Part shown: positions 8,586 through 11,016 of the stretch, piece by piece | Layout: every line of letters begins with the position of its first letter | Numbering within the stretch: position 1 is the stretch's first letter | IMG/VR virus record: IMGVR_UViG_3300003691_000013 | Location: 1 to 46,887 of that record | Strand: one strand, 5' to 3' | Source: a virus | Length of the DNA stretch: 46,887 nucleotides | Made by a program: the position numbers and the translations under genes | The notes under the pieces: model-generated | Told to the model about the DNA's origin: nothing | What the model saw: only the letters and a program-made list of their open reading frames with translations | Database searches by the model: none

Positions 8586-8605
8586 CAATAACAAGGACAA
8601 AATTT

Positions 8606-8701
8606 CTTGCGGTAGCTCAGACTGGCCAGAGCAACTGTACAAGGTCATTACTTCACGGTAATGATCGTATGGTGCGCGTGGGTTCAACTCCCATCCCAAG
8701 A
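8606..8701 (+). tRNA. tRNA-like gene with an overlong anticodon arm; anticodon unclear
   Basis: Acceptor strands 8606-8612 (CTTGCGG) and about 8694-8700 (TCCCAAG), canonical TA (8-9), D-arm GCTC/GAGC (8615-8632) with a normal loop, and T-arm GTGGG-TTCAACT-CCCAT (8678-8694) are clear; one C/C mismatch weakens the acceptor. In place of the 17-nt anticodon arm there is a 40-nt hairpin: ACTGTAC (8634-8640) pairs with GTATGGT (8667-8673), then GGTCATTAC with GTAATGATC around a TTCACG loop, leaving an AA bulge. No seven-base anticodon loop with U33 can be formed without removing bases. It may be an interrupted tRNA, a degenerate one, or a tRNA mimic. Confidence 0.6.
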
Positions 8702-8711
8702 AATTTTCCAT

Positions 8712-8782
8712 TGACACATAGTGTAACGGAAGCACGACAGCTTCAAAAGCTGGCAGTTGAGGTTCGAATCCTTGCGTGTCAA
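8712..8782 (+). tRNA. tRNA with CAA anticodon, short variable arm
   Basis: 71-nt cloverleaf: acceptor TGACACA/CGTGTCA (one mismatch at 7:66), D-arm GTGT/GCAC, anticodon arm ACAGC-TTCAAAA-GCTGG with anticodon CAA at 8744-8746, T-arm with loop TTCGAAT, discriminator A; CCA is not encoded. CAA reads the leucine codon UUG, but leucine tRNAs normally have a long variable arm and this one has only four bases. The body looks more like a glutamine-type tRNA. Amino-acid identity is therefore uncertain. Confidence 0.8.
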
Positions 8783-8793
8783 CAAATAAAAAA

Positions 8794-8899
8794 GCGAGGG
8801 GGTTTCAAGCCAAGAGTCATAAGCACTGGGGTGGACTAGTGAAAGCGCGTACAAAAGCAGCTCCGGAGTCGTTGGGGTAATGTCCAACTACGCCCCCGC
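8794..8899 (+). ncRNA. Structured 106-nt element with T-arm-like hairpin
   Basis: GCG plus GGGG (8794-8801, one bulged A) pairs with CCCC plus CGC (8893-8899). Inside lie a hairpin CACTGG/CTAGTG (8824-8841), the palindrome CTCCGGAG (8861-8868), and GTTGG (8871-8875) pairing with CCAAC (8884-8888) around an 8-nt loop. The arrangement ends with a hairpin next to the closing stem as in tRNAs, but the T-loop sequence is not canonical. Much richer in G+C than its surroundings, as expected for a functional RNA. Identity unknown. Confidence 0.45.
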
Positions 8900-8954
8900 A
8901 CACAACAAGGCCCAGATGTGCCCAATTTAACGAACATCTATCATCATATTATAT

Positions 8955-10073: not shown

Positions 10074-10202
10074 GGGAAGGTAGCTCAGTCCGGTTAGAGC
10101 CCCTGTCTCAGATAGACCTAGTTTAGTAGATTAATATGTAAATAGACATTATTAAACTTACTTATAAACAGGTTGTCCCAGGTTCGAATCCTGGTCTTCC
10201 CC
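10074..10202 (+). tRNA. tRNA-Met(CAT) interrupted by a 54-nt insert
   Basis: Acceptor GGGAAGG (10074-10080) pairs with TCTTCCC (10195-10201); TA at 8-9; D-arm GCTC/GAGC with loop AGTCCGGTTA; anticodon stem CCTGT (10102-10106)/ACAGG (10168-10172); T-arm CCAGG-TTCGAAT-CCTGG. The anticodon loop is broken after CTCA (10107-10110) and resumes with TAA (10165-10167). Removing 10111-10164 gives CTCATAA, exactly the loop of elongator methionine tRNA, so this is a methionine (or, after modification, isoleucine) tRNA. A G at 10073 faces C73, an unusual end. CCA is not encoded. Confidence 0.88.
10111..10164 (+). other. 54-nt intron-like insert in tRNA-Met
   Basis: Inserted between anticodon bases 35 and 36 (one-base shift is equally possible: 10110-10163). 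Insert positions 10-15 (AGTTTA) can pair with positions 43-48 (TAAACT). Its last 22 nt, starting TAGACATTAT, align without gaps to those of the insert in the neighbouring tRNA-Gly. It is far too short for a group I or II intron and the exon junctions do not form an obvious archaeal bulge-helix-bulge. Removal mechanism unknown. Confidence 0.75.
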
Positions 10203-10221
10203 CAAAATAATTATACCACAT

Positions 10222-10346
10222 AGTGCGTTCGTCTAGTGGTAGGACGCCGTAATATTTACTTACATTGATTACACATCACTGTAGACATAATTTAAGTTAC
10301 TAAGCATTCCAAGCCGGTAACAGAGGTTCGATTCCTCTACGCACTG
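10222..10346 (+). tRNA. tRNA-Gly(TCC) interrupted by a 54-nt insert
   Basis: Acceptor AGTGCGT (10222-10228) and ACGCACT (10339-10345) pair perfectly, discriminator G10346. D-arm GTCT/GGAC, T-arm AGAGG-TTCGATT-CCTCT. The 5' anticodon strand stops after CCG (10247-10249, positions 27-29) and resumes with GC (10304-10305, positions 30-31). Joined, CCGGC pairs perfectly with GCCGG (10313-10317) around the loop ATTCCAA with anticodon TCC. The insert therefore lies inside the anticodon stem, a place where neither bacterial group I introns nor most archaeal introns are found. CCA is not encoded. Confidence 0.85.
10250..10303 (+). other. 54-nt intron-like insert in tRNA-Gly
   Basis: Boundaries are fixed by the restored stem pairing: no one-base shift works. 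The length equals that of the tRNA-Met insert. Insert positions 9-13 (ACTTA) pair with 44-48 (TAAGT). Compared with the other insert, the bases at insert positions 44 and 47 differ (A to T, C to G) and the opposite strand differs correspondingly, so pairing is kept. Shared motifs: GATTA in the middle, TAGACATWAT, and TTACTWA at the 3' end. Confidence 0.75.
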
Positions 10347-10354
10347 CAAAATCT

Positions 10355-10436
10355 AAAGAGTATAGGCCATTATAAAGGTTACTAAATTTTTCTATACATA
10401 AATAATGCTACCTTTGTAGATTATCTTATACTCTTT
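10355..10436 (+). promoter_or_regulatory. Bacteroidota-type promoter inside a nested inverted repeat
   Basis: TACCTTTG (10409-10416) matches the -7 core TAnnTTTG; a T-rich stretch at 10387-10391 lies at the distance of the -33 box. The promoter is enclosed by the 10-bp perfect arms AAAGAGTATA (10355-10364) and TATACTCTTT (10427-10436), with AAAGGT (10374-10379)/ACCTTT (10410-10415) nested inside. It follows the tRNA-Gly by 9 nt and precedes the small ORF at 10466. The arms could end tRNA transcription or bind a regulator. Confidence 0.6.
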
Positions 10437-10465
10437 TATATTAATTAATATATAAACTTATACAA

Positions 10466-10543
10466 ATGAGACAAATATACGTTTACATAATCGTAGTAGT
10501 ATTCCTACTAATTATAGCAGCAATTTCAACTAATCCAAATTAA
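10466..10543 (+). CDS. Tiny membrane peptide (25 aa)
   Basis: Reads MRQIYVYIIVVVFLLIIAAI then STNPN. One clear membrane segment. It is the first ORF after the promoter at 10409 and is 10 bp upstream of the next gene, which supports expression; the role is unknown. Confidence 0.5.
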   Translation: MRQIYVYIIVVVFLLIIAAISTNPN

Positions 10544-10553
10544 ATATATATAT

Positions 10554-10700
10554 ATGGCAACGAGAGGAGCAAATAAAGCCAAATGCCAAGGCTATAAAAT
10601 GGCAGGCACACGTATGAAGAATAGACTACGTAAATTAAACAAACACTTGAAAATACATCCAAATGATGCGCCTGCAAAAGCAGCGTTGAAATTGAGATAA
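10554..10700 (+). CDS. Small very basic protein (48 aa)
   Basis: Starts MATRGANKAKCQGYKMAGTR and ends APAKAALKLR; about a third Lys/Arg with few acidic residues. The shape (RLRKLNKHLKIHPND) suggests binding of nucleic acid, which would fit its place among RNA genes, but this is inference from charge only. Confidence 0.6.
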   Translation: MATRGANKAKCQGYKMAGTRMKNRLRKLNKHLKIHPNDAPAKAALKLR

Positions 10701-10707
10701 TAAATCA

Positions 10708-10770
10708 GGGGGCCATTAATTGAGTTACTCAGAGTTTGTAAATCTAATACGCACTCAATCAGATTTCCCC
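10708..10770 (+). ncRNA. Candidate H-type pseudoknot upstream of ORF 10788
   Basis: Stem 1: ATTGAGT (10719-10725) with ACTCAAT (10753-10759). Stem 2: AAATCT (10740-10745) with AGATTT (10761-10766). The stems interlock, giving a pseudoknot, and GGGG (10708-10711) can close onto CCCC (10767-10770). It ends 17 nt before the start of the next ORF, so a role in controlling its translation is conceivable. Confidence 0.4.
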
Positions 10771-10787
10771 GGAGCAATAAATCAGAC

Positions 10788-10895
10788 ATGATCAAAGTTA
10801 CTAAAACAGATAATCACAATCCCGGCTTACCTTCCTTTTCAGAAAAGCGAAGGATAAGTGAAAGGGATTACCAATCTACTTTGAACGACTACTGA
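10788..10895 (+). CDS. Small hypothetical protein (35 aa)
   Basis: Reads MIKVTKTDNHNPGLPSFSEK then RRISERDYQSTLNDY. The composition looks protein-like (NPGLPSF, RRISERDYQ). Between a pseudoknot and the tRNA-like module. Function unknown. Confidence 0.45.
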   Translation: MIKVTKTDNHNPGLPSFSEKRRISERDYQSTLNDY

Positions 10896-10918
10896 TTTTT
10901 ATAACTTAAGTTAACCAT

Positions 10919-10990
10919 ATTACAGGTTACTATTGGTTATTCTAGGTTCAAGTCCTAGTTTTGCCTTCGGGCAAAAATTATACCTGTAAT
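10919..10990 (+). ncRNA. Permuted tRNA / Y-RNA-like module
   Basis: ATTACAGGT (10919-10927) pairs perfectly with ACCTGTAAT (10982-10990). Enclosed are a perfect T-arm CTAGG-TTCAAGT-CCTAG (10942-10958) and, directly adjacent, a 7-bp helix TTTTGCC/GGCAAAA (10959-10976) capped by TTCG, placed like an acceptor stem whose ends are joined. The single-stranded part ACTATTGGTTA resembles a D-loop with GG. This is the layout of a circularly permuted tRNA whose anticodon-stem position is an end-to-end helix, as described for bacterial Y RNAs. There is no D-stem, and T-tract is absent, so it is not a terminator. It ends 26 nt before the gene at 11017. Confidence 0.5.
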
Positions 10991-11016
10991 GATTATTAAT
11001 TTTTAAAACATACTAA

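Follow-up and report, generated by a model that had tools for sequence, protein, structure and literature searches.

The window, by which we mean the entire 46,887-nt stretch of DNA analysed (virus record IMGVR_UViG_3300003691_000013, here G000), encodes a family-A DNA polymerase, a ribonucleotide reductase, a DnaB-like helicase and an ATP DNA ligase, with a weak match to a primase zinc ribbon; the record is probably incomplete. The best GenBank relative of the polymerase is that of Leptolyngbya phage Lbo-JY46, followed by those of crAss-like phages. Two adjacent tRNA genes on the plus strand, tRNA-Met(CAT) and tRNA-Gly(TCC), are each interrupted by an insert of 54 nt, and the protein encoded beside them had no close relative in IMG/VR and only distant relatives in GenBank. 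The Met gene comprises a 5′ exon at 10074–10110, an insert at 10111–10164 and a 3′ exon at 10165–10203; the Gly gene comprises a 5′ exon at 10222–10249, an insert at 10250–10303 and a 3′ exon at 10304–10346. A preliminary description of this sequence had proposed that removal of exactly these 54 nt renders both tRNAs canonical, and the joined exons do indeed fold as cloverleafs. The Rfam tRNA model (RF00005) recovers the Met gene, matching both exons (10074–10202, 49 bits), and ARAGORN in intron mode recovers both genes, with the isotypes wrongly assigned. The Gly boundary is unique (CCG|GC, in the anticodon stem at tRNA positions 29/30), while that of Met can slide by one base: an insert at 10110–10163 gives CTC|ATAA, interrupting the anticodon at positions 34/35, the same reading as at another phage locus (L013).

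Upstream of the two genes, an odd tRNA-like gene at 8604–8703, read by ARAGORN as Ser(ACT) with a 9-nt intron, has a hairpin of 7 bp surrounding the anticodon region and contains no clear insert of either structural class defined below. A GC-rich structured stretch (8797–8910; GAGGGGG ... CCCCCGC) follows closely on the tRNA at 8712–8783 and has no match in Rfam.

The two inserts share one fold

Both inserts have a leader, a stem of 8–10 bp (P1), an internal loop (GATTA / GACAT), a small hairpin (P3) and a 3′ TTACT. In the Met insert, P1 pairs AGTTTAGT (10120–10127) with ATTAAACT (10151–10158) at 8/8 positions; in the Gly insert it pairs ACTTACAT (10258–10265) with ATTTAAGT (10290–10297) at 7/8, and in each the 3′ strand is followed by TACT. 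The internal loop measures 7 × 6 nt in Met (AGATTAA / GACATT, with a GTAA tetraloop on the hairpin) and 7 × 7 nt in Gly. A common stem had been suggested in the preliminary description; the stem is there and slightly longer than described, spanning insert positions 10–19/39–48 in Met and, with one mismatch, 9–18/39–48 in Gly. The resemblance of the last 22 nt, likewise reported before, exceeds chance: 18/22 identity was reached in 0/20,000 dinucleotide shuffles compared in the same register, and in 1/1,000 when any register was allowed.

A third exact copy of the motif core, AGACATNATNNAANTTACTNA, overlooked in the preliminary description, occupies 10784–10804, and a weak copy is seen at 10365. 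Eight matches to the core elsewhere in IMG/VR were all due to chance, with no tRNA nearby.

Circularly permuted copies lie downstream of the tRNA genes

The copy at 10784–10804 belongs to one of four free-standing, circularly permuted versions of the motif, all on the plus strand between 10356 and 11002, in which the 3′ strand of P1 and TACT come first, the 5′ strand of P1 follows 27–79 nt later and the P3 strands lie outside. Copy a (10356–10435) reads P3b AAGAGTATAGG, CCATT, P1b ATAAAGGT, TACT and a loop, P1a ACCTTTGT, AGATTAT, P3a CTTATACTCTT. The same order is seen in copy b (10708–10770; GGGG, CCATT, AATTGAGT, TACT and loop, ACTCAAT(C), AGATTT, CCCC), in copy c (10779–10898; AAATCAG, ACATG, ATCAAAGT, TACT and loop, ACTTTGAA, CGACTA, CTGATTT), which contains the exact core and whose loop is a long rod-like hairpin, and in copy d (10908–11002; AAGTTAA, CCATA, TTACAGGT, TACT and loop, ACCTGTAA, TGATTA, TTAATTT), whose loop is a T-arm plus an acceptor-like minihelix. 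A small basic ORF of ~48 aa (10554–10700) lies between the interrupted tRNAs and permuted copies b–d.

A search of 10345–11016 on pairing and spacing, in which loop letters played no part, returned all four copies; among 3,000 shuffles, three were reached once and four never. Across the window elements, CAT is present in the right loop of 6/6 and GATT in the left loop of 5/6. Counting the two tRNA inserts, the motif is thus used six times in this phage, and the permuted copies would represent the same processing module as the inserts, opened in P3 instead of P1. No permuted element with both loop signatures was found at the other fetched loci (~3 Mb), and other carriers of the same insert class gave scattered matches lacking the window's loop letters, at a per-base frequency equalled by control loci.

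Similar inserts recur in the tRNA genes of unrelated phages

A gapped tRNA-Gly(TCC) pattern allowing 38–68 extra bases, scanned over IMG/VR, identified three unrelated phages (L010, L011 and L012), all with an insert at the window position. Generic D-arm to T-arm patterns followed by stem-based parsing yielded ~90 candidate insert-bearing phage tRNAs in 333 loci, with inserts of 27–68 nt; many of the raw matches were tandem tRNAs or fake D-arms, and were removed by acceptor-stem and anticodon-stem filters. The site of insertion was 28/29–29/30 in 58/88 cases, the remainder falling mostly in the anticodon or its loop, and in 36 of those 58 the exon before the insert ended in CG. A scan with a Met pattern gave mostly false positives, adding class A (see below) L419, in tRNA-Ile, and L290, an insert with a T-arm-like stretch. 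In L192, L078, L290 and L105 the inserts are at anticodon positions 34/35, and several contain the T-arm-like stretch GTTCGATTC; T-arm-containing inserts are possibly a third class, resembling an intron of Lak megaphages said to encode a tRNA.

Outside viral records, the Gly pattern matched 11 times in bacterial and archaeal genomes totalling 257 Gb. Ten matches were spurious or weak and one, on a possibly viral contig from a Scytonema MAG, was plausible, making the feature overwhelmingly viral. The contig (L095, CALMVQ010000214.1) bears two class A-like tRNA inserts, in the region of 2555 and 2824, and the assembly also contains RtcB; these inserts represent either a cyanobacterial phage or a real cellular case.

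Recurrence bears directly on whether the genes are simply pseudogenes, broken tRNAs holding random sequence. Such a view accords with the pseudo-tRNA label that GenBank gives to such genes (for example in Ahp1_CNU-2021), and the preliminary description had held that intact uninterrupted copies in close relatives, together with a lack of conservation elsewhere, would speak for decay. Instead, fold, site and motifs are conserved across unrelated phages, the exons are canonical and the window inserts are alike at 18/22 positions, so that decay is largely refuted and scarcely credible. The contrary suggestion made there, of a functional structured RNA, is borne out by the recurrence of the architecture, with compensatory changes, in unrelated phages. 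No close relative offered a clean empty site, an exact joined version of the L222-type tRNA-Asn was not found, and four class A genes had no BLAST match among GenBank phages.

An insert might instead be retained. Its fold would then provide a regulatory domain or binding site, and the tRNA so interrupted, or pieces of it, would act as a decoy, regulator or attenuator. The free-standing copies in the window are in keeping with this idea, in that the motif is evidently usable without a tRNA. Set against it are the exons, which keep canonical tRNA structure and identity; the insertions within the anticodon, which would abolish decoding; and the finding that, in dozens of genes, insert ends coincide exactly with exon ends and excision gives a canonical tRNA. 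We consider retention distinctly improbable.

Inserts form at least two structural classes

Two classes of insert, occupying the same tRNA site, could be distinguished. Class A (~50–58 nt) begins with an AT-rich leader and P1; between the P1 strands lie an internal loop of ~7 × 6 nt, its right side containing CG, and a P3 hairpin that frequently bears a GNRA tetraloop, and the 3′ end is TTACT or TTATC, with a splice offset that varies by 0–2 nt after TTACT. Class B (~41–56 nt) runs from a leader through a hairpin, the loop of which is GNNA-like, to ACAGCAA or ACTGCAA followed by an AT-rich tail. Both show strong covariation. Among 14 class A members, the window being left out, there were 33 two-sided changes, compared with 11.3 in shuffles (0/500 reaching the observed count), and 87.7% of cells were paired, compared with 69.0% when shuffled and ~50% in slid registers; class B gave 32 two-sided changes, compared with 9.8 in shuffles (0/500). 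In the class A alignment P1 was positioned by its pairing, with a constant 5′ anchor to keep the register (MAFFT alignments A1–A3 misregister P1, and A4 needed an artificial TAAAA anchor), a treatment that favours the stem somewhat; the two-sided changes and the slid controls indicate that this bias is not the explanation.

The descriptor for class A, TTAYY abutted by a P1 of 7–8 pairs, with TTACT/TTATC ~3 nt or less from the 3′ splice site, describes both window inserts (Gly, 7/8 pairs, 71/20,000 shuffles; Met, 8/8 pairs, 11–23/20,000 shuffles), and both have the internal loop and P3 between the P1 strands. Left-loop GATTA is common to the window inserts, L080, L326 and L098, and the last 22 bases of the window inserts agree with those of L080 and L125 at up to 14 positions, while the internal-loop letters are GACAT in the window versus a class A consensus of CGTAG. 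A class A covariance model built without the window (R1) returned no window insert at E ≤ 10 in a scan of the whole window, the model being weakened by its artificial TAAAA 5′ anchor and the window being AT-rich; nor were the inserts recovered in a whole-window scan with the class B model (R2). We assign the window inserts to class A as divergent members, on structural rather than profile grounds.

Class B inserts are present in cultured phages

Cultured T4-like phages of Aeromonas and Vibrio carry class B inserts (L373, AY266303.2 94979–98179; L374, MT161459.1 10246–13310; L375, PV785814.1 182526–185700), in genes annotated as pseudo-tRNA, tRNA-Val or tRNA-Leu, or unannotated. Aeromonas phage Aeh1 has one in tRNA-Asn (96523–96639 of its record), adjoining a second long tRNA annotated as tRNA-Val; others are found in PX29, Ah1, phiAS5 and AsFcp phages. 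Ahp1_CNU-2021 (gene annotated tRNA-Pseudo) and, on inspection by eye, Vibrio natriegens phage QD01 also carry class B inserts, these within different tRNA bodies. A compensatory change distinguishes the Aeh1 and Ahp1 hairpins (CATTCTGTCAAGAATG versus CATCCTGTCAAGGATG). The accessible text of the Aeh1 genome paper gives 24 tRNAs and three pseudo-tRNAs, and tRNA introns are not mentioned there (PMC1524935).

That related inserts sit in different tRNA-Asn bodies in Aeh1 and Ahp1 is what might be expected if a mobile DNA element, or a target of recombination, made use of the conserved anticodon arm and was tolerated through redundancy, as are the strong site preference and the CG preceding the insert. 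Yet no target duplication was seen, the inserts have no coding capacity and are too diverged for a recent arrival, and the covariation shows selection on RNA, making such an origin very unlikely.

RNA ligases are commoner in large insert carriers

RNA ligases were compared among records of ≥150 kb, a non-carrier being a record without an A or B insert by the loci read and model R2 only. RtcB was present in 6/8 class A carriers (T4-type Rnl1 being found in the remaining two), 3/16 class B carriers and 0/22 non-carriers, a difference between class A carriers and non-carriers (p = 5e-5) that is confounded by phylogeny and contig completeness. The same confounding applies to RNA ligases of any kind, found in 22/24 carriers versus 11/20 non-carriers when two records with T-arm-type inserts were left out (p = 0.012). 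Match scores for RtcB vary widely, which suggests that the RtcB of carriers derives from more than one lineage. The archaeal-type splicing endonuclease EndA (PF01974) was found in 0/24 carrier records, controls being positive only in archaea, and the neighbours of RtcB (an AAA_28 protein, one weakly matching GIY-YIG, and unknowns) included no clear nuclease. In L340 and L338, both class A carriers, RtcB adjoins a gene with an AAA_28 domain. In the window record, probably incomplete as noted, EndA, RtcB, Rnl1 and Rnl2 were not found, in agreement with the preliminary description, which had seen no tRNA-splicing endonuclease or RNA ligase.

Alternatively, the inserts could be very small self-cleaving or self-splicing ribozymes, with the internal loop and TTACT strand as the active core and the exons joined by RtcB-type ligation or reverse cleavage. 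Self-cleavage would leave 2′,3′-cyclic phosphate and 5′-OH ends, on which RtcB acts, an enzyme enriched in class A carriers, and the conserved unpaired bases of class A (TTACT, CG or GACAT, GATTA) and class B (ACAGCAA) keep fixed positions. Moreover, one phage holds the motif in two circular permutations, and natural ribozymes such as the hammerhead occur in circular permutations. On the other hand, 41–56 nt is small for two-site splicing, the inserts matched no described ribozyme family in Rfam 15, and two unrelated folds at the same tRNA site fit a shared protein better; we regard a ribozyme as unlikely. A more specific version, which we hold to be quite unlikely, is that a tiny self-excising RNA exists in two natural permutations: the P3-closed form would self-splice from tRNAs, and the P1-closed form (10356–11002) would behave as a permuted intron-exon unit, setting free or circularising the RNA in between (in copy d, the T-arm plus acceptor minihelix), phage RNA ligases sealing the ends.

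Discussion

Class A and class B inserts have the appearance of small introns of an undescribed type, excision of which would be needed for tRNA function. Introns are the best reading because the genes interrupted at 34/35, within the anticodon, cannot work unspliced. The prevailing view is that tRNA introns in bacteria are of group I, large and self-splicing. The window inserts had been described as unlike known bacterial tRNA introns, which holds; they are not peculiar to two genes, and belong to one of two or more families that are widespread in phages. With group I introns the phage inserts share the interruption of tRNA anticodon loops, and differ in that most phage insert sites are in the anticodon stem; a group I identity was rejected on length (54 nt versus ~200+), on a 3′ end of A or T rather than G, and on Rfam matches to RF00005 only. 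A group II identity was likewise rejected, as the inserts start GATAG / TAATA rather than GUGYG, and there was no Rfam match to such introns, of which domain V with its AGC triad is a hallmark.

The tRNA introns of archaea and eukaryotes form a bulge-helix-bulge cut by EndA/TSEN, after which the exons are joined by RtcB or Trl1. Phage inserts resemble them in being short, and non-canonical sites are also seen in archaea, but the phage carriers lack EndA (24 records) and their inserts have conserved folds. A bulge-helix-bulge was also rejected directly: the window junctions form 0–3 of 4 pairs, and full helices occurred in 3/88 and 1/88 inserts, versus 0.9 and 1.6 expected by chance. RtcB has been described as the exon ligase in archaea (PMC4090602). 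The nearest precedent is in Lak megaphages, whose tRNA genes also bear short inserts; Devoto et al. (2019) described these interruptions, class unassigned and some missing in relatives, one being said to hold a tRNA-like sequence, and the main text does not define them by structure, site or ligase association (PMC6784885). Five unusually long (96–127 nt) tRNA loci of Lak-A1 and Lak-B1, the only ones compared, showed no class A or B hallmarks by eye. We found no description of either class in the literature searched, outside which most subscription papers lie.

On balance we think it more likely than not, judging from sequence comparison, that the window inserts are class A small structured introns, removed by fold-guided cut-and-ligate processing and belonging to a family that has spread through phage tRNA genes. 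The pre-tRNA would be transcribed with its insert, the fold of which would position two cleavages, one at the junction of exon and leader and the other 0–2 nt past TTACT. An RNA ligase would then seal the exons. This would be RtcB in the majority of large class A carriers, Rnl1/Rnl2 of the T4 type together with end-healing in other carriers and, in the window phage, a host enzyme or an unsequenced phage enzyme. The RtcB, Rnl1 and Rnl2 of jumbo phages have been read as repairing tRNAs cut by host defence (PMC7824862); the same enzymes are found in insert carriers, and their association here with interrupted tRNAs suggests a role in splicing.

If the inserts are spliced, they constitute a new class of intron. 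Many phage tRNAs would then have been missed or misread, including those of cultured T4-like phages annotated with pseudo-tRNAs or wrong isotypes, and phage RNA ligases may serve splicing besides repair. The motif would represent a new small RNA-processing module.
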